A stretch of DNA of 64,000 bases from Microbacteriaceae bacterium VKM Ac-2854 (lineage in GTDB: Bacteria; Actinomycetota; Actinomycetes; Actinomycetales; Microbacteriaceae). Location of the stretch: the NCBI GenBank assembly GCA_013205085.1, contig JABMLH010000004.1, forward strand, positions 1 through 64,000, written 5' to 3'. The notes beneath the pieces were generated by a model. That model was not told the DNA's origin, did not search any database, and saw nothing but the letters and a program-made list of their open reading frames with translations. A program made the translations under genes and the position numbers. This document shows, in pieces, positions 12,720 through 26,735 of the stretch. Within the stretch, counting starts at the first letter, position 1, and each line of letters begins with the position of its first letter.

Positions 12720-13871
12720 TCACACCGCCGTGGCGATCCGATAGCCGCGCTTGATCACCGTCGCGATCACGCGCGACTCCGGCAGGGCCTGGCGGAGACG
12801 ACTCAGCGCAACGTCGACGGCGTGGTCGTCCAGCGGCTCAGCGGCCGACCGTGCGAGCGCGTCGCGCGAGACGGTCGAGCCCTCGGCGGCCACGAGGGTA
12901 CGGAAGAGCGAGAGGGCGACCGGGCTCAGCGCGACGCGCTCCCCGGCGACGACAGCGAGTCGCCCGCGCAGTTCCAGCGGGCCGTAGATCGTGTCCAGCC
13001 GCGGGATGCAGGTCTCCTCGAGGTGCTCGCAGAGCAGGCGGATCAGCGCGCCCATCCGGAACCGGTCGGGCACGATCGGCAGGATGCCCGCATCCACGAG
13101 TGGCGCGGCCGTCACCGGCCCGACCGCGGCGGCGACGACGGATTCGCGGAACGCGGCCTGCAGCGCATCCAGCTTGCCTGCGGCGTCGGCGGTGGTGAAC
13201 AACGCCTCAACGGCCGGGGCGCTGGTGAAGGTGACCGCGTCGATGGAGCCGGCGCAGATCGCGTCGATCAGGCGCAGCACACGGGCGGAATCCTCGTGCA
13301 TCGTCCAGCGGTAGGGGGCGACCGTGAGCACCGTGGCGCCGGCGTCGGTGAGACGTTCGAGTTGGTCAGGATCCGTGAAACCGTGCAGCTGCACGGCGAC
13401 GGTGAGGCCGTCCACCGGCCCGCGCAGCACGAGGTCGACGAGCGACGTGGTCGTCTCGCGCTCGCTCATGCCGTGATCGTCCAGGCCGGCCGCGCGGATC
13501 GCGCCGCGCGCCTTCGGGCCGCGCACCAGGATGCGGGTCTCGGCGAGCGGTTCGAGGAGATCGAGGCCGGCGGCGTCGGCGGCCTCGAGCCAACGGCGGA
13601 TGCCGTAGGAGGTGGTCGCGAGCAGCACATCCGGTCGGGCGGCGATCACGGCCTCGGTCTCGGCGACGAGCACCGCGTCGTCGCTGACCCCGGTCATCCG
13701 GATGGTCGGCGCGTGAGTGACGTCGGCGCCGCGCCGTTCGAACGCGGCGATCAGATCCTCCGAGCGGCGGTCGGAGGTGACGCCGATGCGGAAGCCGTCG
13801 AGCTGATCGGCGCGGAAGCCGGGCGAACTCTCGGGCGAGCTCTCGGGTTCGCTGGGCGGCAGCACGGTCAT
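12720..13871 (-). CDS. HemD-like transcriptional regulator with C-terminal winged helix (NnaR-type)
   Basis: This 383-residue protein joins a uroporphyrinogen-III-synthase-like domain (about residues 25-265: [44 protein letters not shown]) to an OmpR-type winged helix (about 290-383: [37 protein letters not shown]). Proteins of this architecture, such as Streptomyces NnaR, regulate nitrate/nitrite assimilation alongside GlnR. It lies 31 nt after the SUMT gene in the nirB operon, as expected. The ATG at 13871 follows a GAGGAAGG site. Whether the HemD domain is catalytic or senses a tetrapyrrole is not decided. Confidence 0.85.
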
Positions 13872-13902
13872 CGAACGGCCTTCCTCGCGAGCGGGGCGGG
13901 GG

Positions 13903-14949
13903 TCACAGGATGGCGGCGACGGTAGCGGCCATCGGGTCGGAGACATCATCCCATGAGGCCACCCGCACGACCTCGCCGATCACGATCACCGCGGGCGAGC
14001 GGGGCGCGAGCTCGGCGAGCTTCGCCGTGATCGCGCCGACCGTCGAGACGGTGCTGCGCTGCGAGTGGGTGAAGCCGCGCTCGATGATCGCCAGCGGCAT
14101 ATCGGCGCGCATGCCGGCGCGCTGCAGCCCGGCTGCGAGGTGCGGCAGCGTGTTCACCCCCATCAGCACGACCAGGGTGCCGCCGAGCCCGGCGAGGTGG
14201 CCGAGCTCCTGCTCGCTGAAGGGGGCGTGGCCGGAGACGACGGTGAACGCGCGGCTGATCTCGCGATGCGTGACGGGGATGCCGACCGAGGCGGGCACCG
14301 AGATCGCGCTGGTGACACCGGGTACCACGGTGACGGGCACGCCGGCCTCGCGGCACGCCTGCACCTCCTCGACACCGCGGCCGAAGACGAACGCGTCGCC
14401 GCCCTTGAGCCGGACGACGGCGTTGCCGGCCAGGGCGTGCTGCACGAGCAACGCCTCGATCTCGTGCTGCGGCACGGCGTGGTGGCCGGGCGTCTTGCCC
14501 ACGTCGATCAGCACGGCTCCGGGCGCCCACTGCACCAGGGCATCGCGCGGGCCGAGCCGGTCGAACAGCACAACGTCGGCCCGTTCGAGGGCGCGGCGCC
14601 CGGCCAGCGTCAGCAGCTCGGGGTCGCCCGGGCCGCCGCCGACGAGGGTGACGGATCCGCGCGGCAGCAGCGGCGCCGGCTCCTCGTCGATCAGCCAGAC
14701 GCGGTGCCGCGCGGCCTCGATCGCCAGACGTTCGCGCACCGCGGCCGGCCCCTCGAGCCACACGATCAGCGCGGGCAGAGCGCCGGGCAGCAGAGCGGAG
14801 GAGGCGAGCCGCAGCGGCAGTTCCGCGCTCGCATCCTGCCGGTCCACGAGGGCTCCGGCCGCCTCGAAGCGCGCGAGGGCGCGCCGGGCGCCGGCCGCGG
14901 ATCCGACCAGCAGCACGCGTCGGCCGGCGACGTCGACATCGAGATTCAT
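13903..14949 (-). CDS. Uroporphyrinogen-III C-methyltransferase with degenerate N-terminal CysG-type domain
   Basis: This protein has 348 residues. The C-terminal ~240 residues are a complete [87 protein letters not shown]. The first ~105 residues resemble the start of the CysG precorrin-2 dehydrogenase domain ([19 protein letters not shown]). They are about half its usual length and lack a clean GxGxxA/G NAD site. It methylates uroporphyrinogen III to precorrin-2 on the way to siroheme, the cofactor of NirB. The ATG at 14949 overlaps the nirB stop (ATGA). Confidence 0.85.
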
Positions 14950-17522
14950 CGAGCACCTCTGACGGGGATGGACGGGCCGGAGAGCAGCACCTTTCCTTCG
15001 GTGCGCTCGGCGGCGGTGGCCGGGCGGTTCTGGTCGCGTTCGCGGACCTTGGTGATACTCGGATCGGCGGTGTCGGGCGCGTTCACGAAGGAACGGAATC
15101 GGCGCAGCCGCTCCGGGTCTTTGAGCGTAGCCGCCCACTCATCCTCATAGTTGCCCACGTGCAACGCCATGGCCGCCTCCAGATCGGCCGCGATGCCGAG
15201 GCTGTCCTCGCAGACCACCTCACGCACGTGCTCGAGTCCGCCGGGCAGCTCCTCCTGCCAGCGCGCGGTGCGCTGCAGCCGCTCGGCGGTGCGCACGTAG
15301 TACATCACGTAGCGGTCGATGTAGCGGATGAGGGTCTCGTCGTCGAGGTCCTGCGCGAGCAGCTGGGCGTGGGCCGGTTGATACCCGCCGTTGCCGCCGA
15401 CGTAGAGGTTCCAGCCGTTCTCCGACGCGATCACGCCGATGTCCTTGCCGCGCGCCTCCGCGCACTCGCGGGCGCAGCCGCTGACGCCGAGCTTGAACTT
15501 GTGCGGCGACCGCAGGCCGCGGTAGCGCAGCTCCAGCAGCACGGCCATGCTCACCGCGTCCTGCACTCCGTAGCGGCACCAGGTCGAACCGACGCAGCTC
15601 TTCACCGTGCGCAGCGACTTGCCGTAGGCCTGGCCCGACTCCATCCCGGCATCGACGAGGATCTGCCAGATCTCGGGCAGCTGCTCCAGGCGGGCGCCGA
15701 ACAGGTCGATCCGCTGGCCGCCGGTGATCTTCGTGTACAGGTCGAACTGCTCGGCGACCTCCGCGATCACCTTCAGCTTGGCCGGCGTGATCTCGCCGCC
15801 GGGGATGCGCGGCACGACCGAGTAGGTGCCGTCCTTCTGCATGTTCGCCAGGGCGCGGTCGTTGGTGTCCTGCATCGGGCCGGAGCCGCCGTCGAGGATG
15901 TAGCTGCCCGTCTGCGTCGCGACGACGGAGGCGACGACCGGCTTGCAGACGTCGCAGCCCAGGCCCGAGACGAAGCGTTCCATCACCTCGTGGGCACTTC
16001 GCAGGCCGAGGATCCGCACGGATTCGAACAGCTCGCTGCGGCTGAGGCTCACGTGTTCGCAGAGCGCGCGGGACACCTCCACGCCGGACTTGGTGAGTTC
16101 GGTGTCGAGGATCTTCTTCACCAGCGGGACGCAGGATCCGCACTGGGTGCCGGCGCGGGTGCAGGCCTTGAGCTCGCCCAGGTCGGTGCAGCCCTCCGCG
16201 ATGGCGTGCCGCACCGCTCCGACGGCGACGTTGTTGCAGGAGCAGATCTGCACGTCGTCGGGCAGATCCGCTCCGGCCGGGGGCTCGGCCCCCGCGGCGG
16301 CGAGATAGGCGCCGGGCTCGCCGGGCAGCTCGCGACCGAGCAGCGGTCGCAGGGACGAGTACGGTCCGGCGTCGCCGACGAACATGCCGCCGAGCAGCGT
16401 CTTCGCATCGTCGCTGACCACGATCTTCTGGTAGAGGCCGCGGGCGGGGTCGGCGTAGACCACCTCCAGGGCGCCCTCCCCGCGGGCCATCGCGTCGCCG
16501 AAGCTGGCGACCTCGACGCCCGAGAGCTTGAGCTTGGTCGCGTCGTCGACGCCGGGGAAGACGGCATCGCCGCCCCAGATCCGGTCGGCGACGACCTCGG
16601 CCATGGCGTTCGCGGGCGCGACGAGGCCGACCGTCGATCCGTTCACGGCGGCGACCTCGCCGATCGCCCAGATGTGCGGGGCGGAGGTGGCGCAGGCGTC
16701 ATCGATCACCACGCCGCCGCGCGGGGCGAGCGCGATGCCGGCGTCGCGGGCGAGCTCATCCCGCGCGGTGATGCCGATCGAGAAGACGACGATGTCGGCG
16801 CTGACGCTCGATCCGTCGGTGAGGGTGAGCCCGAGCACTGTGCCGGTGGGGCTGGTCAGGATCTCGGTCGGGCGGTTGCCGAGGTGCAGGGTGATGCCCT
16901 GGCCGCGGATGATCCGGCCGAGCGCCTGGCCCGCGCCCTCGTCGAGCTGAGCCGACATCAGCCAGCGACCGGAGTGCACCACGGCGCTGCGCGCGCCGAG
17001 GCGATTCACGCCGCCGGCCGCTTCGAGCCCGAGCAGGCCGCCGCCGACGACGACGACGTTCGCGTCGCGGCCCCTGCGGGCTTTGAACTCGGCGACCTCG
17101 GCGACCAGCTCGTCGACATCCTCCAACGTGCGGTAGACCCGACCGGCGGCGGCGTTGGTGATGGGCGGCACCGTGGCCGAGGATCCGGTCGCGAGCACCA
17201 ACTCGTCGTAGCGCAGGGTCTCGCCCGCTGCCGTGACGGCGGTACTCGTCGCCGGGTCGATCGAGGCGACGCGGGTGTTCGGGAGGTAGGTCGCCGCATC
17301 CCACACGCCGGTGCCGAGGGTGAGGTCAGCGGCGCCGTCGAGGCGCTTGCTCAGAGCGACGCGGTCGTAGGGCAGGTGCGGCTCCTCGCCGAGCACCGTG
17401 ATCCGCAGCTGCGGATCCGCGGGGTCGAGGCGGGAGGAGAGCGACTCGGCGAGGCGGTGCGCGGCGGGGCCGCCGCCCACGACGAGGACGTGGCGGGGCT
17501 CTCGGGCTGCTGCTTCGGTCAT
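14946..17522 (-). CDS. nirB: Assimilatory nitrite reductase [NAD(P)H] large subunit NirB
   Basis: This 858-residue protein has the full NirB layout. An FAD site ([15 protein letters not shown], about residue 14) and an NAD site ([14 protein letters not shown]) come first. A BFD-like [2Fe-2S] domain follows (CSCNN near 425, then [11 protein letters not shown]), then the sulfite/nitrite reductase half-domain ([13 protein letters not shown]). The siroheme/[4Fe-4S] cysteines lie near residues 635-680 (CVGSTWC and [11 protein letters not shown]). It reduces nitrite to ammonium. No nirD follows; a NirD-like domain is fused to a chelatase at 24632-25714. The ATG at 17522 lies 7 nt behind a TACCGT -10 element, so the mRNA may be leaderless. 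Confidence 0.93.
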
Positions 17523-17545
17523 GGCGTTCACGGTAGGCAGCGCAG

Positions 17546-17583
17546 GTTTCCCCCGATCGCGTCCGCCGTATCCCGCGCGTAAC
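17546..17583 (-). promoter_or_regulatory. GlnR-like tandem operator upstream of nirB
   Basis: On the minus strand the site reads GTTAC-n6-GATAC-n6-CGCGA-n6-GAAAC. The four 5-mers sit exactly in the 5-6-5-6-5-6-5 spacing of the GlnR a-site/b-site consensus (gTnAC-n6-GaAAC twice). Ten nt after the last half-site comes the -10 TACCGT (17530-17535), then ATG 7 nt on. The same arrangement occurs upstream of moeA and of nirD::cbiX. GlnR is the expected binder; the HemD-like regulator is an alternative or partner. Confidence 0.7.
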
Positions 17584-17661
17584 GGTTCTCTCACGCCGCT
17601 TCGGAGGCGCCGTGAGGTCGCGTCACGGCGGTCCGTCCCGGCCCCGGGCTCGATCCCCTGT

Positions 17662-17716
17662 GAGATGCCACTTCTGTACACGTCGGACGGCGTGTCGCGT
17701 ACAGAAGAGGCATCTC
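17662..17716. repeat. Palindromic element, copy 1 (between nirB and moeA)
   Basis: Arms 17662-17682 and 17696-17716 (21 bp, two mismatches) enclose a 13-nt loop. Read on the minus strand, the first ~27 nt (ATGCCTCTTCTG followed by ACGCGACACGCCGT with one differing base) are nearly identical to the left arm of the element at 24560-24608. It is therefore a repeated element rather than a chance hairpin. Confidence 0.75.
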
Positions 17717-17786
17717 GCGGGGAGGAGGAGTAGCGCCCGCGGTGCGGTGCGACCTCTCGGGGGCGCGCGGCGGGTGAGAGGAGTCC

Positions 17787-17823
17787 GTTACCCGCGGTGA
17801 CCGGGCCGCAATGCCGGGGAAAC
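17787..17823 (+). promoter_or_regulatory. GlnR-like operator upstream of moeA
   Basis: The plus strand reads GTTAC, then TGACC after 6 nt, a weakly matching central half-site, and finally GAAAC, followed 10 nt later by the -10 TAGGCT (17834-17839). One nucleotide is missing relative to the perfect 38-nt spacing at nirB and nirD::cbiX. The surrounding bases (GTGAG upstream, GCTGCCTA downstream) are also shared with those two promoters. Confidence 0.62.
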
Positions 17824-17845
17824 GCCCGCTGCCTAGGCTCGGCGC

Positions 17846-17872
17846 ATGGCCAGACTCCCCTGCCGGCGCTGA
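17846..17872 (+). CDS. Leaderless 8-codon micro-ORF coupled to moeA
   Basis: ATG at 17846 lies 6 nt after the -10 TAGGCT, the spacing of leaderless actinobacterial transcripts. It encodes MARLPCRR and its TGA (17870-17872) overlaps the moeA ATG (TGATG). If the transcript starts at this ATG, ribosomes would reach moeA by coupling. Actinobacterial leaderless short ORFs can act as attenuators; that role here is inference. Confidence 0.4.
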   Translation: MARLPCRR

Positions 17873-19059
17873 TGCGCACGGCCCAGCAGACCGCGCACGA
17901 CCTCGACTGGCGTGCCGCCCGCGACCGCGCCCACGCCGCGGCGACGGAGCGTGCAGCGGTGACCGTACTGCCGCTCGTCGAAGCCGCGGGGCACACCCTC
18001 GCGCACGACGTCTTCGCCACGAACGACATTCCACGCAACGCCGGCAGCGCGATGGACGGCTGGGCGGTCGCGCGAACCATCGGGCCGTGGACACTGGGCG
18101 AGCCGATCCTCGCGGGGGACGCGCCGTCGTCCGTTCGGGCGGGCGAGGCCCGACCCATCGCGACGGGCGCCGCTGTGCCGACCGGCGCGGTCGCGGTGAT
18201 CCGCCGCGAGCACGGCGACGTCGTGCGACCCGGCGCCGCGATGCTGCAGCTGAACGCTCTGGCCACCGGGCCGCGACCGGGCGACCACATCCGGCCGGCG
18301 GGTGAGGAGGCGCGACGCGGCGATCCGCTGCTGCGCGCGGGCACCGTGCTCACGGCACCGCGGATCGGCCTGGCCGCTGTCGCCGGCTTGGACGAGCTCG
18401 CGGTGCGGGTGCCGGTGGCCGTTGACTGCGTGCTGCTGGGCGACGAGATCCGCCGGTCGGGAGCGCCGGAGGCGGGGGCCGTGCGCGACGCGCTCGGGCC
18501 GGTGCTGCCGGGCATCCTCGCATCGATGGGACTCGCGCCCGGCCGGATGCGCTGGGCCGGCGACGATCCGGACGCGACGCTCGCTGTCCTGGCCGCGACG
18601 ACGGCTCCGCTCGTGATCACAACGGGCGGGTCCTCGCGCGGACCGACCGACTTCGTCCGAAGCGCACTCTCCGCTCTCGGCGGGCGACTGCTGATCGACG
18701 GCGTTGCGATGCGGCCCGGGCATCCGGTGATGCTCGCGCGGCTGCCCGGCGATCGGATGCTGCTGTGCCTGCCGGGGAATCCGCTGGCCGCGCTGTTGTG
18801 CCTGGCCAGTTTCGGCATGCCGCTCGCCGACGGCCTGCTCGGCCGCCCGCAGCGGGCGCTCGGCGCCCTCACGCTCACCGTCGATGCGCCGAATCCCGCC
18901 CGGGCGACCCGGCTGCTGGCCTGCGCGGGCGGCATCCCGGTGCCGTGGCAGGGGTCGGGCATGCTGCGCGGCCTCGCCGCCGCGGATGCGGTGGCGGTCG
19001 TCCCGCCGGGTGGCGCCGCGGCCGGCGAAACGGTGGCCTCGGTGCCGTTGCCGTGGTGA
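17872..19059 (+). CDS. moeA: Molybdopterin molybdenumtransferase MoeA
   Basis: This 395-residue protein has the MoeA motifs: NAGSAMDGWAVA (family: xSAMDGYA), IATGAAVPTGAVAVIRRE, the domain-3 TTGGSSRGPTDFVRSAL (TGGxSxGxxD), and LLCLPGNPLAALLCLASF. It inserts molybdenum into adenylylated molybdopterin, the cofactor of the nitrate reductase encoded at 20896-23004. The ATG at 17872 overlaps the stop of a micro-ORF; an in-frame GTG at 17797 lies inside the operator and is rejected. The GlnR-like promoter ties it to the nitrate regulon. Confidence 0.87.
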   Translation: MRTAQQTAHDLDWRAARDRAHAAATERAAVTVLPLVEAAGHTLAHDVFATNDIPRNAGSAMDGWAVARTIGPWTLGEPILAGDAPSSVRAGEARPIATGAAVPTGAVAVIRREHGDVVRPGAAMLQLNALATGPRPGDHIRPAGEEARRGDPLLRAGTVLTAPRIGLAAVAGLDELAVRVPVAVDCVLLGDEIRRSGAPEAGAVRDALGPVLPGILASMGLAPGRMRWAGDDPDATLAVLAATTAPLVITTGGSSRGPTDFVRSALSALGGRLLIDGVAMRPGHPVMLARLPGDRMLLCLPGNPLAALLCLASFGMPLADGLLGRPQRALGALTLTVDAPNPARATRLLACAGGIPVPWQGSGMLRGLAAADAVAVVPPGGAAAGETVASVPLPW

Positions 19060-19070
19060 TGGTGGCAGCG

Positions 19071-19132
19071 AATGACGCTGGATCGGCCTGAACGGGGGTA
19101 TTCAGCCGGGTTCGACCTGGATCAACGTCATT
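19071..19132. terminator. Hairpin between moeA and the nasB side, probable terminator
   Basis: AATGACG (19071-19077) pairs with CGTCATT (19126-19132), with a further imperfect extension inward and an inner CTGAA/TTCAG stem. It starts 11 nt after the moeA stop and lies between convergent transcription units, so it may serve both strands. Confidence 0.45.
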
Positions 19133-19137
19133 TCCGT

Positions 19138-19233
19138 TCAGTGTCGAGCGGCCTTGGCCTTCTGCGACGCATTGACGCGCTTGACCAGGAAGGCGAGGAG
19201 GGTGAACACGGTGGGCAGGATGCGGACGATCAC
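19138..19233 (-). CDS. Possible 31-residue single-pass membrane peptide downstream of nasB
   Basis: GTG at 19233 is preceded by GGAG with 5-nt spacing and opens a frame of 31 codons. It encodes one hydrophobic segment followed by a basic tail (IVRILPTVFTLLAFLVKRVN then ASQKAKAARH). It would be a single-pass membrane peptide with positive-inside topology. It lies 95 nt downstream of nasB on the same strand. The RBS and hydrophobic/basic pattern support it; the size makes chance possible. Confidence 0.35.
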   Translation of the reverse strand: MIVRILPTVFTLLAFLVKRVNASQKAKAARH

Positions 19234-19328
19234 GATGGCTCCGTTCTGCGACGCGAAGTGCGCCGTCAGGAGTAGGACGGAACAGGCGAGCGATTCGTCA
19301 CGGTTTCGGTATCACCCGCTCGATCGGC

Positions 19329-20903
19329 TCAACCCGCGACGGCGCGCGCCAGGAGTTCGGTGATCCGCCCTGTGCAGCCGCCGCAGCCGGTGCCGGCCCG
19401 CGTCGCGGCGCCCACACACGCGACCGTGTCGTTGCCCGCAGCCACCGCATCCGTGATCGCCCCGACTGTGACGCCGTTGCACCAGCACACCGTCGCCTCG
19501 CGGGCGAACGGATCGCCCGTGGCGGCAGCACCGGCGTCCGGCGCGTCCAGCCGCAGCAGCGCGGTGCGATCGGCCGGCAGCTCGGAGCCGCGCTCGAACA
19601 GCAGCGTCAGCTCGGCCCCCGCCCGCGGCAGACCGACCGCGACGAAGCCGGTCAGCCGGCCACCGACCGTGACCAGCTTGATGTAGCCGCCGCGCCCCGG
19701 ATCCGCCCAGACGCTGACCTCGGAGCCGCAACTGTGCGCGGGTTCGTCCCACAGCTCGGCGGCCACGTCGCCGCCGGAGACGACGTCGATGCCCTCCGCC
19801 TTCAGCATCACGACCCCGGCGCGCGGCGGATCCAGCAGCTCGGTCGAGCGGCCGGCCGCCTCCGCCACGAGGCGAGCCGCGAGCCAGTCCGCCTGGCGCC
19901 AGCCCGGCCCGATCAGGCCGCTCGGTCCGCCGGCGACGCGGCCGTCCGCGCCCGCGGATCCGCGGGGCGCGACGTGCGCGCAGTCACCGATCGCGAACAC
20001 ATCCGGATCGGTCCAGCTGCGCAGCTCCTCGTCCACGAGGATGCCCGTCGAGACGGCGAGATCGGCCCCGGCCGCGAGTTCGGTGCGCGCGCCGACGCCG
20101 CAGGAGAGCAGCAGCAGGTCGCCGTGGATCTGCTTGCCGTCGGCGCAGAGCAGCGCGTCGAAATGTGCCACGCCGGTCTCGTCGTGCCGCAGCAGGATGC
20201 TCTCGGATCGGGCGTGCGCGGCCATCTCGACCCCCGCGGCCCGAGCTGCGCGCGCGAGCATCCGCCCGCCGCCCTGGTCGAGATTGCGGCCCATCGGCAC
20301 GTCGCCGTGGTAGACCGCGACCACCTGGGCGCCCTGCTCCGCGGCGGCGAGCGCGATCTCCATCCCCAGCACGCCGGCGCCGAGCACCACGACCCGTTGC
20401 CCGGCCGAGACGGCCGCGCGCACGAGCTCCGCATCCGCGAGATCCCGCAACGCGACGACCCCGGCGGGCAGCGGCGCCGCGCCCGAATCCAGGGTGGCCG
20501 GGTCGAGCGCCCGGACCCGGCGATCCCGCCGCGAGCGCTCCATCCCCGCGAGCGTCGGCACGTTCGCCCGCGCCCCGGTTGCGAACACCAGGCGGTCGTA
20601 CGGCACGCGCTCGTCGTCCGATAGCCGCACGACCTGGCGCGATCGGTCGATGCCGACCACGGCCGTGCTCAGTCGGATATCCACTCCGGCCGCGCGCGCC
20701 GCCTCCGTGTCGATGATGTCGAGTCGTTCCCTGCTCGCCCGCCCGACCGCGTACTCCGCGATCAGCACGCGGTTGTACGCCTCGTGCTGCTCCGCGCCGA
20801 TCACGGTGAGCGCGACGGTGCCGGAACGGACCGCCGGCAGCAGCTCCTCCACGAAGCGGGCGCCGACCGGGCCGTAGCCGATCAGCACGATGCGGTCAGT
20901 CAT
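19329..20903 (-). CDS. nasB: FAD-dependent oxidoreductase with BFD [2Fe-2S] domain, nitrate reductase electron-transfer subunit (NasB-like)
   Basis: This 524-residue protein is a pyridine-nucleotide-disulfide oxidoreductase-type protein. Landmarks are VLIGYGPVGARFVEEL (FAD site, residue ~6), VVVLGAGVLGMEIALAAAE (NAD site), FAIGDCAHVA (second FAD contact) and a C-terminal BFD-like cluster (CWCNGVTVGA then CVGAATRAGTGCGGC). In actinobacterial nas operons this architecture passes electrons from NAD(P)H to NasA. The start overlaps the nasA stop region by 8 nt, indicating a shared transcript. It resembles the N-terminal half of NirB but lacks the siroheme domain. Confidence 0.82.
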   Translation of the reverse strand: MTDRIVLIGYGPVGARFVEELLPAVRSGTVALTVIGAEQHEAYNRVLIAEYAVGRASRERLDIIDTEAARAAGVDIRLSTAVVGIDRSRQVVRLSDDERVPYDRLVFATGARANVPTLAGMERSRRDRRVRALDPATLDSGAAPLPAGVVALRDLADAELVRAAVSAGQRVVVLGAGVLGMEIALAAAEQGAQVVAVYHGDVPMGRNLDQGGGRMLARAARAAGVEMAAHARSESILLRHDETGVAHFDALLCADGKQIHGDLLLLSCGVGARTELAAGADLAVSTGILVDEELRSWTDPDVFAIGDCAHVAPRGSAGADGRVAGGPSGLIGPGWRQADWLAARLVAEAAGRSTELLDPPRAGVVMLKAEGIDVVSGGDVAAELWDEPAHSCGSEVSVWADPGRGGYIKLVTVGGRLTGFVAVGLPRAGAELTLLFERGSELPADRTALLRLDAPDAGAAATGDPFAREATVCWCNGVTVGAITDAVAAGNDTVACVGAATRAGTGCGGCTGRITELLARAVAG

Positions 20904-23004
20904 GGCAGGCCTCCACGAGCACTCGGGTTCGCTTGAATTCCGGCATCGCCGAGATCGGATCCACGGCCGCCTCCGTCAGGAGGTTCGCGCACTGCTCGCC
21001 GGCGTAGTGGAAGGGCAGGAACACGGTGTCGTGCCGGATGCCGGCGGTCACCTCGGCGCGGGCGCGCACGACACCGCGCTCGTTCGCCACGCGCACCAGC
21101 GCGCCGTCGACGATGCCGAGCCGGGAGGCCGTGGCGGGATGGATCTCCAGGCGCGCCTCGGGCCGCGCCTGCTGCAGTTCCGGCACCCGCCGGGTCTGCG
21201 CGCCGGACTGGTAGTGCTGCAGGTAGCGGCCGGTGATCAGGGTGAGCTCCGCACCGGAATCCGTGACCGCGATCGGCGCCGGGGTGACCGCGACCAGACG
21301 TGCGCGGCCGTCGGGATGCGCGAAGGCGTCCAGGAACATCCGCGGTGTGCCGGTGGAGCCCGGGGCGAACGGCCAGTAGGCGGCGACGCCGGTGTCCAGC
21401 AACTCGTGGCTCAGCCCCGAGTAGTCGGCCAGGCCGCCGGCGGAGGCGCGGGCCAGCTCGTCGAAGACCTCCGCGGGATCGGTGCTCCAGGTCGAGGGGG
21501 CGCTCAGTCGGCGGGCGAGTTCGTGCATGATCCACAGCTCGCTGCGCACCTCGCCGGGCGGCGGTAGCGCGCGGCGGCGGCGCAGCACCCGGCCCTCGAG
21601 CGAGGTCATCGTGCCCTCCTCCTCCGCCCACTGCGTGACGGGCAGCACGACGTCGGCGAGACGGGCGGTCTCGGAGAGGAAGAAGTCGCAGACCACGAGC
21701 AGGTCCAGCGCCGCGAGGCCGGCGCGGACCGCTCCCGCATCCGGAGCCGAGACCACGACGTTCGAGCCGTGCACCAGCAGGCAGCGCACGGAGCGGCCGA
21801 GCTCGCCCAGCAGCTCGACCGCCGGCACCCCGGGCCCCGGGATGCTCGCGGCCGGCACGCCCCAGACGCCCGCGACGTGCTCGCGCGCGGCGGGATCCGT
21901 GATCTTGCGGTAGCCCGGAAGCTGGTCGCACTTCTGGCCGTGCTCACGACCGCCCTGGCCGTTGCCCTGGCCCGTCATCGTGCCGTAGCCGGAACCCGGG
22001 CGTCCGACGAGGCCGAGCACGAGGGCGAGGTTGATCGCGGCCGTCGCCGTGTCGGTGCCGTCGACGTGCTGCTCGACGCCGCGACCGGTGAGGATGTAGG
22101 CGCGGCCGGCCGCGAGGCGGCGGGCCACCGCGCGCAGCTGGGCGACGGGCACGCCGGTCGCCGATTGAACCCGCTCCGGCCACCAGGCGTTGGTGCTGCG
22201 CCGCACCGCGTCGAAGCCGCTCGTGCGGGCGGCGAGGTAGTCCGCATCCGCCAGCCCTTCGGCGATCACGATGTGGGTCAGGCCGAGAAGCAGCACCAGG
22301 TCGGTGCCGGGCGCGGGCTGCAGGTGGAAGCCGCCGCCCTCCTCCGTCAGCCGCGCGGTCGCGGTGCGGCGCGGATCCACCGCGACGAGGCCGCCCTTCG
22401 CGCGGACGCCGGTGAGGTGGCCGATGAACGGCGGCATCGTCTCGGCCACGTTCGAGCCGAGGATCAGGATGGTGTCGGCGTCGTCGAGATCCTCGACCGG
22501 GAAGGGCAGGCCGCGGTCGAGACCGAACGCGCGATTGCCGGCCGCGGCCGCGGAGGACATGCAGAAGCGGCCGTTGTAGTCGATCCGGGAGGTGCCGAGG
22601 GCGAGCCGGGCGAACTTGCCCAGCTGGTACGCCTTCTCGTTGGTGAGCCCGCCGCCGCCGAACACCCCGACCGAGTCGGCGCCGAAGCGTGCGCGCGAGT
22701 CGCGCAGCCGCTCGGCGATCACGTCGAGCGCCTCGCTCCAGGATGCGCGGGCGAAGGATCCGTCCGCCTGCTTGAGCAGCGGATGCGTCACCCGCTGCCC
22801 CGAGTCCAGCAGTTCGGCCGAGGTCCAGCCCTTCTTGCACAGCCCGCCCCGATTCGTCGGGAAGTCCCGCCCGGCGACCTCGATCCGAGCTCTCGTCGGA
22901 ATGCTGGTCCGAGCGCCCGTCGGCGTGCCCGTCGCCGTGCTGGTGGGCGTCAGCGTCATCGCGCACTGCAGCGCGCAGTACGGGCAGTGGCTGTCTGCGC
23001 TCAT
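20896..23004 (-). CDS. nasA: Assimilatory nitrate reductase catalytic subunit (molybdopterin oxidoreductase)
   Basis: This 702-residue Mo-bisMGD enzyme binds a [4Fe-4S] cluster through CPYCALQC (residues 7-14) and a fourth Cys in GGLCKKGW (about 55). Other motifs are GVFGGGGLTNEKAYQLGKFAR, DYNGRFCMSSAA (the CMSSA Mo region), GSNVAETMPPF, and the C-terminal ITGRYLQHYQSGAQTRR and PFHYAGEQCANLLT. Between the third and fourth Cys lies a low-complexity Thr/Pro/Ala stretch not normally present. It reduces nitrate to nitrite in the cytoplasm and sits between narK and nasB. Confidence 0.92.
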   Translation of the reverse strand: MSADSHCPYCALQCAMTLTPTSTATGTPTGARTSIPTRARIEVAGRDFPTNRGGLCKKGWTSAELLDSGQRVTHPLLKQADGSFARASWSEALDVIAERLRDSRARFGADSVGVFGGGGLTNEKAYQLGKFARLALGTSRIDYNGRFCMSSAAAAGNRAFGLDRGLPFPVEDLDDADTILILGSNVAETMPPFIGHLTGVRAKGGLVAVDPRRTATARLTEEGGGFHLQPAPGTDLVLLLGLTHIVIAEGLADADYLAARTSGFDAVRRSTNAWWPERVQSATGVPVAQLRAVARRLAAGRAYILTGRGVEQHVDGTDTATAAINLALVLGLVGRPGSGYGTMTGQGNGQGGREHGQKCDQLPGYRKITDPAAREHVAGVWGVPAASIPGPGVPAVELLGELGRSVRCLLVHGSNVVVSAPDAGAVRAGLAALDLLVVCDFFLSETARLADVVLPVTQWAEEEGTMTSLEGRVLRRRRALPPPGEVRSELWIMHELARRLSAPSTWSTDPAEVFDELARASAGGLADYSGLSHELLDTGVAAYWPFAPGSTGTPRMFLDAFAHPDGRARLVAVTPAPIAVTDSGAELTLITGRYLQHYQSGAQTRRVPELQQARPEARLEIHPATASRLGIVDGALVRVANERGVVRARAEVTAGIRHDTVFLPFHYAGEQCANLLTEAAVDPISAMPEFKRTRVLVEACHD

Positions 23005-23017
23005 CGTGCTCTCTCCA

Positions 23018-23105
23018 GGGGGTTGTCACTCCGTCCCGCAGCAGCGGAACGCGGGAGGGGGTTGTCACTCCGTCCCGCATCGACGGCGGGACGGAGTGAC
23101 AACCC
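23018..23105. repeat. Direct and inverted repeat between narK and nasA
   Basis: A 23-bp sequence occurs twice in direct orientation (23018-23040 and 23057-23079, core TTGTCACTCCGTCCCGC). Its last 20 bp are repeated inverted at 23086-23105. The second copy and the inverted copy form a perfect 20-bp stem with a 7-nt loop, beginning 1 nt after the narK stop on the minus strand. There is no U-tract, and nasA lies 102 nt beyond narK. Confidence 0.85.
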
Positions 23106-23106
23106 T

Positions 23107-24507
23107 CTAGATGCGGATGCCGGCCTTGATGCCGCCGCGGAGGTAGACGGTGCCCGTGATCACGAGCATCACCGCGTACGCCATCACGAACCAGCCGAGC
23201 GCGGTGGTGTAGTCGCCGTACGCGGTCTTCGAGAAGCCGAGCAGCTGCGGGATCACGAAGCCGCCGTAGGCGCCGATCGCCGAGATCAGGCCGAGCGCCG
23301 CCGCGGTCTTGCGCTGCGTGCCGACATCGCCCGAGTTGCGGTGCGCATCCTTGGTGCCGGCGCGCATCGAGAAGACCGTCGGGATCATCCGGTAGGTCGC
23401 CCCGTTGCCGATCCCGGCCGCGGCGAACAGCACCATGAAGAAGAGCAGGAACAACCAGAAGCTGCCCAGGGGCAGCGTCCAGATCACGCTGAGCGCGCCG
23501 AGGCCCATCACCACGAACGCCGCCATCGTCACCGCCGCACCGCCGAAGCGGTCGGCGAGCTTGCCGCCGAACGGCCGCGAGAGCGAGCCGACGAGCGAGC
23601 CGAGGAACGCCAGCGACAGCGTCGCCGTGCCGACCGCGAAGGTGGAGAACTCCGGGAAGGAGTCGGCGATCAGCTTCGGGAACACCCCCGCGAAGCCGAT
23701 GAAGGAGCCGAAGGTGCCGATGTACAGCACCGCGAGGATCCAGAGGTGCGGTTCCTTGACGGCGGCGATGGAGGCGGCGAAGTCGGCCTTCGCCGTGCCG
23801 AGGTTGTCCATCCGCTTGTACGCGCCCACGATGGCGACCAGGATCAGCGGGATCCAGATCCAGCCCGCGAGCGGCAGGTTCAGCGTCGCGGCGGCTCCGA
23901 TCGTGATCGCGATCGGCACCAGCAGCTGCGCGACCGAGGCGCCGAGGTTGCCGCCGGCCGCGTTCAGCCCGAGCGCCCAGCCCTTCTGCGCCTGCGGGTA
24001 GAAGAAGGTGATGTTCGCCATGCTGCTGGCGAAGTTGCCGCCGCCGAACCCGGCGAGCGCCGCGACGAACAGCATCACTCCGAACGGTGTATCGGGGTTG
24101 CCGACGCAGAGCGCGAGGGCGATGGTCGGGATCAGCAGCAGCGCCGCGGAGATCATGGTCCAGTTGCGCCCGCCGAACTTGGGCACCATAAAGGTGTACG
24201 GGAAGCGCAGCGTCGCGCCGACCAGGCTCGGCATCGAGATCAGCCAGAAGATCTGCCCGGTGTCGAACGAGAAGCCGGCCGCCGGCAGCGAGACGACGAC
24301 GATCGACCAGAGCTGCCAGACGACGAAACCGAGGAATTCGGCGAAGATCGACCAGCGCAGGTTGCGCGCCGCGATCTCCTTGCCGCCGGCGTTCCACTGG
24401 GCGACATCCTCCGGGTTCCAGCCGTCGATCCACCGCCCTGGTCGGTGCACGAGGCGGGCACCGTCGGCGGGAGTACGGGGGGCAGTGGTGGGTGGTGCAG
24501 CGGTCAC
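23107..24507 (-). CDS. narK: Nitrate/nitrite transporter, NarK/NasA-type MFS
   Basis: This 466-residue protein has about 12 transmembrane segments. It starts WIDGWNPEDVAQWNAGGKEIAARNL, characteristic of actinobacterial NarK proteins. GFGGGNFASSMANITFFYPQAQKGWALGLNAAGGN and GIGNGATYRMIPTVF are the two nitrate-signature motifs of the NNP family. GTG at 24507 follows CCGGAGGAACACC, a good RBS, and sets the start; the longer open frame is unsupported. It sits between nirD::cbiX and nasA in one probable operon and imports nitrate or exchanges nitrite. Confidence 0.92.
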   Translation of the reverse strand: MTAAPPTTAPRTPADGARLVHRPGRWIDGWNPEDVAQWNAGGKEIAARNLRWSIFAEFLGFVVWQLWSIVVVSLPAAGFSFDTGQIFWLISMPSLVGATLRFPYTFMVPKFGGRNWTMISAALLLIPTIALALCVGNPDTPFGVMLFVAALAGFGGGNFASSMANITFFYPQAQKGWALGLNAAGGNLGASVAQLLVPIAITIGAAATLNLPLAGWIWIPLILVAIVGAYKRMDNLGTAKADFAASIAAVKEPHLWILAVLYIGTFGSFIGFAGVFPKLIADSFPEFSTFAVGTATLSLAFLGSLVGSLSRPFGGKLADRFGGAAVTMAAFVVMGLGALSVIWTLPLGSFWLFLLFFMVLFAAAGIGNGATYRMIPTVFSMRAGTKDAHRNSGDVGTQRKTAAALGLISAIGAYGGFVIPQLLGFSKTAYGDYTTALGWFVMAYAVMLVITGTVYLRGGIKAGIRI

Positions 24508-24559
24508 GGTGTTCCTCCGGAAGTCGGCACAGCTGTAGCGAGGGGATGGTCGCCGCGGC

Positions 24560-24608
24560 ATGCCTCTTCTGCACGCGACACGCCGTGGACGGCGTGCGCA
24601 AGAGGCAT
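24560..24608. repeat. Palindromic element, copy 2 (between nirD::cbiX and narK)
   Basis: The left arm starts at 24560 and the right arm ends at 24608, paired imperfectly with a 7-nt bulge (ATGCCTCTT ... AAGAGGCAT plus CACGCCGT/ACGGCGTG). The left arm is nearly identical over ~27 nt to the minus strand of the palindrome at 17688-17716. It lies in the gap between two genes of the nas operon. Confidence 0.7.
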
Positions 24609-24631
24609 CTCGCGGGAGGAGCGGGGGCGGG

Positions 24632-25714
24632 TCAGGCGGTGCGGTAGAGCTCGGAGACGATGTCGACCAGCTCGGTCGGCGTCGCGTCCGCGGCGGAGCC
24701 CGCCGGGTCGAGCAGGAGCGGGTCACTGGTGAGGTCGGCGCCGGCCTCGGCGGCGAGCGTGGCGAAGTAGCCGGGAGCGAGCAGGTACGTGGCGACCACG
24801 ACCCGGGCGTCCGGATGCGCGGCCCGCGCGGAGGCGACGGCATCCGGCACCCGCGGATGAGCGGCCGAGATGAACGAGACGGTCACCTCGTGGCCGAGTT
24901 CGAGCGCGAGCAGCTCCCCCATCGTGTGGCAATCGGTGACGGCGGAGGCGTCGCTGGAGCCGGCGGCCGCGAGCACAACCCGGTCGTCGGCACCGAGCCC
25001 GGCCTGGTGCAACCGGCGGGCGAGGACGGTCGCGAGTCGCGCATCCGGCCCGAGGGCGCCCGTGATCCGCACCGGCCGATCGGCCTCCTCCGCGGCCTCG
25101 GCGAGGTCGACGTGCACGTGGTACCCGGCCGAGAGCAGCAGTGGCACGACCGCCGCCGACTGGCCCGGGGCGAGCGCGGCCAGGACGCTCGGCACGTCGG
25201 GCTGCTGCACGTCGACGAAGGAGTCGAGCACGTCGGCCTCGGGATTCGCGGTGCGGACGGCCTCGACCAGAGCGGCCACGGCCCGTCGACCGCCGTGGTC
25301 GGAGGTGCCGTGCGAGGCGGCGACGAGCGCCGTGCGGCGACGCACCTCGATCATCCCGTCCCTCTCGCGGCTGTGCCACGTCGGCAGACGCAGGCTGCTC
25401 CTGGTGTAGCACGCGCCGGTCTCCAGGTCGAAGACGTCCTTGTGCAGCGGCGAGGCGATCGTGGGGCGATCCACCCCGTCGACCCGCCGCGATCCGACGA
25501 TGCCGCGCGACATCACGGCCGCGCCGGTCGCCGGATCGAGATTGGAGACCACCCGGACCCGGCCGTCGGGCAGCAGGAAGAGGGCGATCTGTTCGCCACC
25601 GACCAGCGCGGCCTCGCCCCACAGGGTCTCGAGCTCGTCGCTGCTGCACACGGGGTGCCACGCGAGCACCGCCGGCGAGTGGAGGGTGGTGCCCGGGTTC
25701 TCGAGAATCGTCAT
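24632..25714 (-). CDS. NirD-like nitrite reductase small subunit fused to CbiX/SirB sirohydrochlorin chelatase
   Basis: This protein has about 360 residues. Residues ~15-115 match NirD, the Rieske-like small subunit (ALFLLPDGRVRVVSNLDP, SPLHKDVFDLETGACY). The Rieske Cys/His ligands are missing, as is usual for assimilatory NirD. Residues ~125-355 are a two-lobed CbiX-type chelatase (LVAASHGTSDHGGRRAVAAL; VVPLLLSAGYHVHVDL; a second lobe with LAAAGSSDAS, EVTVSFISA and VVATYLLAPGYF). It would supply iron-loaded siroheme and the NirB partner from one polypeptide. ATG at 25714 sits 4 nt after GGAGG; ATG at 25717 is too close. A GlnR-like operator lies upstream. Confidence 0.82.
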   Translation of the reverse strand: MTILENPGTTLHSPAVLAWHPVCSSDELETLWGEAALVGGEQIALFLLPDGRVRVVSNLDPATGAAVMSRGIVGSRRVDGVDRPTIASPLHKDVFDLETGACYTRSSLRLPTWHSRERDGMIEVRRRTALVAASHGTSDHGGRRAVAALVEAVRTANPEADVLDSFVDVQQPDVPSVLAALAPGQSAAVVPLLLSAGYHVHVDLAEAAEEADRPVRITGALGPDARLATVLARRLHQAGLGADDRVVLAAAGSSDASAVTDCHTMGELLALELGHEVTVSFISAAHPRVPDAVASARAAHPDARVVVATYLLAPGYFATLAAEAGADLTSDPLLLDPAGSAADATPTELVDIVSELYRTA

Positions 25715-25781
25715 CATGCCTCCTTCGCTTCGGCGACCGCGACCGGTCGGCTGTTGTTGAAGGCAACGCTAGGCAGCGCAG

Positions 25782-25819
25782 GTTTCACCCGTTCGCGCCT
25801 GCGGTGTCACCGACGTAAC
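25782..25819 (-). promoter_or_regulatory. GlnR-like tandem operator upstream of nirD::cbiX-narK-nasAB
   Basis: The minus strand reads GTTAC-n6-GACAC-n6-CGCGA-n6-GAAAC with the same spacing as at nirB. Ten nt later comes TAGCGT (25766-25771) as the -10. The following ~45-nt leader carries AAGGAGG before the gene. Flanking bases, including CCTGCGCTGCCTA after GAAAC, are shared with the nirB promoter, which points to a common regulatory input. Confidence 0.7.
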
Positions 25820-25826
25820 GTTCCCC

Positions 25827-26735
25827 TCACCGACCGGGCGAGGAGGTGTGAGGTGGCGTCGTCGACCGGTGGTTCGCGGTGCGATCCGCTTGCTGGTCGC
25901 CGCCTCGTTCCGTGGCCCACCAGGATGCGAGCAGACGGAGGGATTCCTCGGCGGCGGCGTCGGCGGGAGTGTTGACGAACAAGGTCTGGCCCTCGTTCCC
26001 CGGGATGATGAAGGCCTCCCAGTCGATCACGAGTTCGCCCACGGCGGGATGGACGAAGGTCTTGCGTCCCGCGGTGCGGCCCTGCGGATTCGGGATGGAC
26101 CACCAGGCCCGGAACTGCGGACTCTTCGTCGCAAGCTCTCCCACGAACGACTGCATCTCGGGATCGTTCGGGCGCGCGCTCGCTTCGAGCTGCAGCACAC
26201 CGACCTGATCCGAGACCACCTGATCCCACTCCTTGTAGAGGGATCGGGCTTCCTCATCCAGGAGCATCCAGCGCAGCAGGTTGCGATCCCCCGGAGCACG
26301 ACGCGGGAAGTCGGTCAGAAGCGCCCAGGCGAGGTCGTTCCCGGCGAGGACCTCGGAGCGCGGGCCCACGACGAACGCCGCCTGCCGGTCGAACGATCGG
26401 AGCATCCTGACGATCCCCGGTCGGACCGGGCTGGCGGGCCGCCTGCCGCCGATGCCCGCGGCCGGTCGAGCGAGGTTCACGAGGTAGTCGCGCTCCGCAT
26501 CATCCAGACGCAGGATCGTGCCGATCGCGTTCAGGACGGACTCGGAGGGCGTCACCTGACGCCCCTGCTCGAGTCGCACGTACCAGTCGACGCTGACTCC
26601 GGCGAGGATCGCGACTTCCTCGCGGCGCAGCCCGGGCACCCGGCGCGGGCCGGTCACGTTCAAGCCGGCCTGCGCGGGGCTCACCGCTGCCCGCCGGCCG
26701 GTCAGGAACTCGCTCAGAGCCTCGTTCTTCGCCAT
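25827..26735 (-). CDS. XRE-family regulator with MmyB-type ligand domain
   Basis: This 302-residue protein has an XRE HTH at about residues 28-85 (RVPGLRREEVAILAGVSVDWYVRLEQGR), the hallmark of the actinobacterial MmyB-like family. A PAS-like MmyB domain follows (VRMLRSFDRQAAFVVGPRSEVLAGNDLAWALL; KTFVHPAVGELVIDWEAFIIPG). Such regulators usually control an adjacent oxidoreductase. The SDR gene at 26884 is divergent, with a 148-nt shared intergenic region. The C-terminal end lies close to the operator of the nas operon but on the far side of its promoter. Confidence 0.87.
   Translation of the reverse strand: MAKNEALSEFLTGRRAAVSPAQAGLNVTGPRRVPGLRREEVAILAGVSVDWYVRLEQGRQVTPSESVLNAIGTILRLDDAERDYLVNLARPAAGIGGRRPASPVRPGIVRMLRSFDRQAAFVVGPRSEVLAGNDLAWALLTDFPRRAPGDRNLLRWMLLDEEARSLYKEWDQVVSDQVGVLQLEASARPNDPEMQSFVGELATKSPQFRAWWSIPNPQGRTAGRKTFVHPAVGELVIDWEAFIIPGNEGQTLFVNTPADAAAEESLRLLASWWATERGGDQQADRTANHRSTTPPHTSSPGR

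Follow-up and report, generated by a model that had tools for sequence, protein, structure and literature searches.

The window considered here is the first 64,000 nucleotides (nt) of contig JABMLH010000004.1 (GenBank assembly GCA_013205085.1) from Microbacteriaceae bacterium VKM Ac-2854. It contains a cluster of nitrate and nitrite genes in which three promoters, those of nirB, moeA and the nirD::cbiX-narK-nasC-nasB string, share one arrangement of elements. Read 5' to 3', the predicted composite consists of an inverted repeat of the type attributed to the regulator NnaR, 6 base pairs (bp), an array of GlnR-type half-sites in 11-bp phase running from GTTAC to GAAAC, a 10-bp spacer, and a -10 element of the form TANNNT. 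The elements at the three promoters are as follows.

17590-17616, minus strand: NnaR-type inverted repeat of the nirB promoter, CTCAC-N17-GTGAG (composite match with 0 mismatches)
17546-17583, minus strand: GlnR-type array of the nirB promoter, with GTTAC (17579-17583), GATAC (17568-17572), a weak CGCGA (17557-17561) and GAAAC (17546-17550)
17530-17545, minus strand: nirB 10-bp spacer CTGCGCTGCC and -10 element TACCGT (17530-17535)
17754-17780, plus strand: NnaR-type inverted repeat of the moeA promoter, CTCTC-N17-GAGAG (GTGAG is also present, at N15)
17787-17823, plus strand: GlnR-type array of the moeA promoter, with GTTAC (17787-17791), GTGAC (17797-17801), GCAAT (17808-17812) and GAAAC (17819-17823)
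17824-17839, plus strand: moeA 10-bp spacer GCCCGCTGCC and -10 element TAGGCT (17834-17839)
25826-25852, minus strand: NnaR-type inverted repeat of the nirD::cbiX-narK-nasC-nasB promoter, CTCAC-N17-GTGAG
25782-25819, minus strand: GlnR-type array of the same promoter, with GTTAC (25815-25819), GACAC (25804-25808), a weak CGCGA (25793-25797) and GAAAC (25782-25786)
25766-25781, minus strand: nirD::cbiX 10-bp spacer CTGCGCTGCC and -10 element TAGCGT (25766-25771)

The three GTTAC...GAAAC sites had been pointed out in a preliminary description of this DNA; all are present, with perfect outer half-sites in each case. The window holds the pattern GTTACN{25,30}GAAAC three times where 0.05 are expected, a count that none of 100 shuffles reaches. 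The genome (4,754,022 bases) has three places with the longer pattern GTTAC-n27/28-GAAAC-n3-5-GCTGCCTA and none with the reversed pattern as control, and the gap from GAAAC to GCTGCCTA is n4 at the nirB, moeA and nirD::cbiX sites. The moeA array is indeed one base shorter than the others (n27 rather than n28). The absent base is best placed in the first spacer, since the form GTTAC-n5-GTGAC-n6-GCAAT-n6-GAAAC restores good inner half-sites, and this form matches the nirB promoters of nine genomes of the genus (GTCAC-n5-GTTAC-n6-GCAAC-n6-GAAAC). Of the 5-6-5-6-5-6-5 spacing that had been proposed, the 11-bp phase of the half-sites stands, but the inner half-sites are uneven (GATAC and CGCGA at nirB, GACAC and CGCGA at nirD::cbiX). 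The proposed match to the GlnR consensus holds for the form A[C/T]-n9-AC given for Mycobacterium smegmatis in PMC3662644, which is present as AC-n9-AC in the upstream pair at nirB and nirD::cbiX and only as AT-n9-AC in the downstream pair at moeA. It does not hold for the full a-b-a-b consensus as given in PMC10704036 (gTnAc-n6-GaAAc-n6-GtnAC-n6-GAAAc), from which all three promoters deviate at the inner half-sites (at moeA, GTGAC and GCAAT follow an n5 spacer). Taken from the letters, a GlnR-like operator with a common core promoter is supported at the three sites.

In every one of the three promoters exactly 10 bp separate GAAAC from TANNNT; the preliminary description had placed a shared element and a -10 element at equal distance. 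The nirB start codon (17520-17522) is 7 nt 3' of its -10 element, which predicts a leaderless message with a 5' end at or near that codon, while the nirD::cbiX start codon (25717) lies behind a GGAGG, 48 nt past its -10 element. Six nucleotides past the moeA -10 element begins a mini open reading frame (ORF) of eight codons and a stop (MARLPCRR*, 17846-17872), the TGA of which overlaps the moeA ATG (TGATG); a coupled start or a shifted frame is possible. In the sister genome G010, an ATG lies 7 nt past the matching moeA -10 box. Counted from the first base of TANNNT, GAAAC is at -15, the other half-sites at -26, -37 and -48, GTGAG at -59 and CTCAC at -81, all in one 11-bp register; moeA is the exception, with everything above the first spacer one base nearer.

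GCTGCCTA consists of the last six bases of the 10-bp spacer and the TA of the -10 element. An identical octamer at equal distance in three promoters, with four occurrences in the window against 0.53 expected, might be taken for a distinct operator of a third factor, but when composite sites of genomes other than this one and its sister are compared, only one of 66 distinct GAAAC-to-minus-10 tails has it. The full pattern of the preliminary description is found in 2 of 15 genomes of the genus. GCTGCCTA as an operator is rejected, and a third factor reading it is scarcely credible.

The 10-bp distance is not confined to the nitrate cluster. Three Micrococcaceae nirB promoters (L042, L047 and L060) have GAAAC-n6-GAAAC-n6-GAAAC-n10-TANNNT, and glnA of two genomes of the genus (G009 and G011) has GTAAC-n6-GAAAC-n6-GACAC-n6-GAAAC-n10-TACCCT. 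At these glnA genes the match to the inverted repeat is poor, with two mismatches (TTCCC or ATCGC for CTCNC, CAGAG for GNGAG), and in G005 a similar site with three mismatches precedes what appears to be the same glnA start. The 10-bp distance thus looks like a trait of GlnR promoters, and the repeat like a trait of nitrate genes. This bears on whether MtrA, PhoP or another OmpR-family regulator reads the GTTAC...GAAAC arrays in place of GlnR, or competes there. MtrA is encoded in the genome (2gwr mtrA, 1.9e-96), and PMC6277429 describes the motifs of MtrA and GlnR as near-identical, and MtrA as binding at nirB in mycobacteria; however, the distance to TANNNT is common to glnA, a classical GlnR target, and the target genes belong to nitrogen assimilation. 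A leading or competing role of such a regulator is unlikely.

The inverted repeat formed no part of the first site definition and had gone unnoticed. CTC[A/T]C-N17-G[T/A]GAG lies exactly 6 bp 5' of GTTAC at all three promoters; it is exact at nirB and nirD::cbiX, and degenerate yet in register at moeA. In 29 loci of the class the gap from GTGAG to GAAAC is 38 to 42 (34 to 44 being allowed), so that the spacing of repeat and GlnR box is nearly constant. The repeat conforms to the published NnaR motif: NnaR-dependent promoters of M. smegmatis are reported to have ctCAC[a/c]-16N-[t/g]GTGag near a GlnR motif, with similar spacing and features of leaderless messages (PMC6277429), and a CTCAC..13-16..GTGAG pattern is quoted from Streptomyces coelicolor and Mycobacterium tuberculosis promoters in PMC11162112. 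The suggestion that a second factor, the HemD-like regulator, acts at these promoters is supported in substance, but not by way of the extended GCTGCCTA match that had prompted it; the second factor probably binds at the inverted repeat, which lies apart and further upstream. A role of this palindrome as an RNA hairpin is rejected, since it lies upstream of the predicted transcript starts. The 25826-25852 palindrome overlaps the last codons of the upstream gene for an MmyB-like helix-turn-helix protein, so that coding sequence and operator would occupy the same DNA. Four more CTCAC-N15-19-GTGAG repeats lie outside the nitrate cluster (C5:52965, C11:251324, C11:308425 and C18:130579 of the same genome).

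With up to three mismatches allowed, the composite pattern is found in the genome at these three places only, each with none, and nowhere with the reversed control. A matrix made from 35 distinct sites of other genomes, cut to 20 at 80% identity with the own and sister loci excluded, scores nirB at 66.3, nirD::cbiX at 63.9 and moeA at 43.7; next comes a reading of the nirB site shifted by one base, at 0.5, and the background of three random windows on one strand reaches at most -12.6. The training sites were selected with a pattern that shares these consensus letters, which the scores therefore largely re-express. Among the 15 genomes of the genus, the N28 and N27 forms both occur, each with 0 mismatches, in one set of 11; these 11 also have NirB and an NnaR match over 368 or more of the 409 residues. 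In the genus search, NirB, NnaR and the composite site are all unmatched in G002, G003 and G014, and G007 (L175) has neither NirB nor the site, with only a partial NnaR-like match (query residues 253-408, 79% identical, open frame of 390 amino acids). Over 394 genomes of the class there are 49 exact matches in 44 genomes and 13 of 138 genera (two of the 49 in the genome studied here) and none to the reversed pattern; under this strict pattern 350 genomes have no match. Of the 47 matches in other genomes, 29 were read with their neighbouring DNA, and in 27 of these 29 narK, nirB or cbiX homology begins within 140 nt; at L222 nirB homology begins 1.1 kilobases (kb) downstream, and at L216 none was found. 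Two genomes of one family and genus have sets of composite sites within 10 kb, three in G491 (C1:237383-246756) and two in G428 (C6:29734-34976); among them, L232 precedes a cbiX-like gene and L233 precedes nirB.

These distributions bear on two simpler explanations. If GlnR alone worked the promoters, the inverted repeat would be incidental or would serve an unrelated factor; array and -10 element do make a coherent promoter, as at glnA of the two genomes above, and the genome shows no enrichment of the repeat taken alone. Against this, a repeat that fits the published NnaR motif keeps an exact distance in all three promoters and likewise in relatives, and the 11 of 15 genomes that have the composite are also those with near-full-length nnaR; GlnR alone is a very improbable explanation. 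The likeness might instead come from recent duplication of one promoter within the cluster rather than from selection, for CTGCGCTGCCTA is exactly common to nirB and nirD::cbiX. Palindrome interiors and array spacers differ while the elements agree, however, and the composite is found across the class; we give such a duplication hardly any credence.

The genes behind and around the three promoters are the following.

14946-17522, minus strand: nirB, large subunit of nitrite reductase (TIGR02374, 924.7 bits)
13903-15138, minus strand: sumT/cobA-like uroporphyrinogen-III C-methyltransferase, siroheme (TIGR01469, 265.6 bits)
12720-13949, minus strand: nnaR, with a HemD domain and a C-terminal Trans_reg_C winged helix (NF005568, 428 bits against a cut-off of 273; PF02602, PF00486)
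17872-19059, plus strand: moeA, molybdopterin molybdotransferase family (PF03453, PF00994, PF03454)
24632-25717, minus strand: nirD::cbiX fusion (TIGR02378; PF13806, PF01903)
23107-24843, minus strand: narK-type nitrate/nitrite transporter (TIGR00886, 280.9 bits, below the cut-off of 311.7; NF011608, 351.9, below 836)
20896-23004, minus strand: nasC/nasA-type assimilatory nitrate reductase, a molybdoenzyme (NF047855, 697 bits, below the cut-off of 1100; PF00384, PF01568, PF04879)
19329-20903, minus strand: nasB-type reductase subunit with flavin adenine dinucleotide and [2Fe-2S], named from neighbourhood and domains (PF07992, PF04324)
25827-26735, minus strand: MmyB-like helix-turn-helix ORF, upstream of nirD::cbiX

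The promoters thus stand before nitrate and nitrite genes, with moeA contributing cofactor synthesis. The sumT/cobA-like ORF overlaps nirB, so its true start is probably further in. The product of nnaR has the domain order of NnaR, PF02602 (HEM4) at 65-303 followed by PF00486 (Trans_reg_C) at 336-405, and is the predicted reader of the inverted repeats; because its gene is 3' of nirB and sumT on the same strand, it is probably co-transcribed with them and would control itself. GlnR is encoded outside the window by an OmpR-type protein (L091; best PDB matches 8hih, 2.5e-79, and 8hig; 4o1h, which is named GlnR, 1e-26), and the genome therefore has both nnaR and glnR. Among the NirB records listed, the closest named ones are from Rathayibacter (81%), own genome and near kin being possibly excluded; since Rathayibacter promoter DNA (L011, L012 and L015) agrees with that of G012, G011 and G004, respectively, the genus is probably Rathayibacter. 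NirD and cbiX are separate neighbouring stretches in several relatives (e.g., L022, L027 and L028), and the NirD part alone is matched in L017, L019 and L020. A record titled Sporosarcina beigongshangi (L088, 1-22466) has an actinobacterial-type nirB-sumT-nnaR cluster (NirB 65%, NnaR 53%), which is contamination or transfer.

Elements, spacing, uniqueness, conservation and co-occurrence with nnaR and nirB are observed directly, and on these grounds the three sites are very probably composite NnaR-GlnR activated promoters of a known kind. Under nitrogen shortage GlnR would bind the array head to tail, with its last half-site near the -35 place, where it could recruit polymerase. PhoB-type activators likewise bind near the -35 place. 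NnaR on the palindrome, one turn further up and on the same helical face, would stabilise GlnR, so that both keys would be needed. Such a switch would activate nirB-sumT-nnaR (with self-feedback of NnaR), nirD::cbiX-narK-nasC-nasB, and moeA, which would serve the molybdenum cofactor of nitrate reductase.

Several points weigh against this interpretation. The half-site at -26 is poor (CGCGA) at both nirB and nirD::cbiX. CTCACN{15,19}GTGAG alone is not enriched, with six places in the genome (two of them here) against 11 in the reversed control; being no rarer than chance, the repeat draws its weight from its fixed position. Palindrome and GTNAC alone make a noisy pattern (364 matches against 165 reversed at up to three mismatches), and 21 other places match it as well as does the moeA site, which is by its letters the weakest of the three, with CTCTC/GAGAG arms and only AT-n9-AC. 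The genomes of the genus are related, so their co-occurrences do not amount to 15 independent trials, and 3 of the 11 NnaR matches (G001, G005 and G010) hold one TGA inside the match. Two nasB-linked moeA loci (L148 and L149) are without such a site within 5 kb. The likeness of the MtrA motif to that of GlnR, reported as very close in PMC6277429 together with binding of MtrA at nirB in mycobacteria, also counts here. Binding, 5' ends, operon structure and regulation at these promoters are predictions.

Since moeA is the weakest site, its conservation is of particular concern. In the sister genome G010, moeA (70.5% identical) is likewise divergent from nirB, and GTGAGAG is kept at the inverted-repeat position. 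Between the two genomes the elements of the moeA operator are identical at 32 of 36 positions and its other bases at 24 of 50, and for the nirD::cbiX operator the corresponding numbers are 34 of 36 and 37 of 51. A survey of the 5 kb above moeA in the 24 further loci of a moeA search at a threshold of 1e-60 found a nasB-like gene (56-71%) convergent within 1.5 kb in four, and a composite-like site in two of these four compared to none of the other 20. These two sites (L255 in G054 and L257 in G122) are from two other genera and, in the orientation of moeA, lie 873 and 1243 bp above it, where they head mobA-moeA operons beside nasB by way of a mobA-like gene. Their matrix scores are 29.2 and 27.0, while the other 22 loci reach at most 7.8; the background for this test was 24 chunk-strands of the window (best -4.3), with a slightly different pseudocount. 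In G054 the mobA-like ATG is 7 nt after TAGCGT, a distance like that of nirB in the window and of moeA in G010. In listings of open-access papers, neither moeA nor mobA was seen to be reported as a target of NnaR, no search being aimed at mobA.

The arrangement of palindromes differs among the genomes of the genus. One palindrome is common to divergent promoters in 10 of the 11 genomes with the system: in nine it stands in the nirD::cbiX-nirB interval, flanked by both genes in 9 of 9, and serves the two arrays, and in G010 it is shared by moeA and nirB (65205-65231). The three promoters of the window have three separate palindromes. Between the moeA and nirB palindromes of the window is a copy of an interspersed palindromic repeat (17656-17728, arms near AGATGCCACTTCTGTAC and GTACAGAAGAGGCATCT) with at least 77 matches in the genome, this copy included, and from at least 6 to at least 82 in each of 14 other genomes of the genus; it is a family of the genus resembling repetitive extragenic palindromic (REP) elements or miniature inverted-repeat transposable elements (MITE). 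A GTNAC at N6 on the far side of the NnaR-type palindrome is present in 19 of 23 distinct strings with a recognisable far-side promoter and in 6 of 55 without, counts in which some strings are overlapping registrations of one site and which include own and sister sites; at least one of the 55, L016, seems to be divergent, its GAAAC having decayed. The far-side GTNAC is thus found mostly where a second promoter lies and belongs to a GlnR array, and the idea that the NnaR site itself includes a GTNAC on each side is rejected.

Taken together, these arrangements suggest a broader reading, to which we give somewhat less than an even chance. The NnaR palindrome would be a symmetric, phase-locked hub with each arm one helical turn from a GlnR array, and one dimer would nucleate GlnR in both directions and so switch two divergent promoters. 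Such a hub could capture new genes, and may have done so stepwise in the genus, from the nirD::cbiX-nirB palindrome of nine genomes, through moeA on the nirB palindrome in G010, to the three palindromes of the window; the composite-like site heading mobA-moeA beside nasB in two other genera would be part of the same picture. If so, the supply of molybdenum cofactor came under the double-key switch of nitrate reductase more than once.

The composite NnaR-GlnR promoter is already known (PMC6277429, PMC11162112, PMC10704036 and PMC3662644, as cited here). For M. smegmatis, gel shifts with both NnaR and GlnR are reported (PMC6277429, Antczak 2018), and its nirB and narK promoters as described there resemble the present ones in having a CTCAC..GTGAG-type repeat near a GlnR box at similar spacing, a start 3' of the GlnR box and leaderless features. 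They differ in the palindrome interior (18 between CTCAC and GTGAG in the published motif, 17 here); moreover, in the genome studied here nnaR is behind nirB, moeA is an extra candidate target and nirD is fused to cbiX in the narK-nas string. In S. coelicolor NnaR and GlnR are reported to bind the nirB promoter cooperatively (PMC10704036), and the NnaR regulon as described in PMC10704036, PMC6277429 and PMC11162112 includes narK, nirB and nasA, as is predicted here, whereas moeA, a candidate target here, is not named in those descriptions. The narK3-nirBD-nnaR-sirB operon of Mycobacterium abscessus is likewise described with predicted NnaR sites before the nnaR-bearing operon and before the nitrate reductase gene (PMC11162112), but these are two sites, compared to three promoters with three palindromes in the window. 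Classical GlnR boxes (a-b-a-b, e.g., glnA) share the 11-bp phase and, at glnA of G009 and G011, GAAAC-n10-TANNNT; they differ in having stronger inner half-sites and no good NnaR repeat.

The three promoters would extend the NnaR-GlnR double-key promoter from streptomycetes and mycobacteria to Microbacteriaceae, with a sharp geometry that can be searched for. Less expected are moeA as a target and one palindrome shared by divergent promoters. Promoters of the latter kind, with one candidate NnaR site and two GlnR arrays, would allow the cooperation of the two regulators to be tested on a short DNA fragment. The moeA sites suggest that the regulon takes in molybdenum-cofactor genes where these adjoin nitrate reductase.

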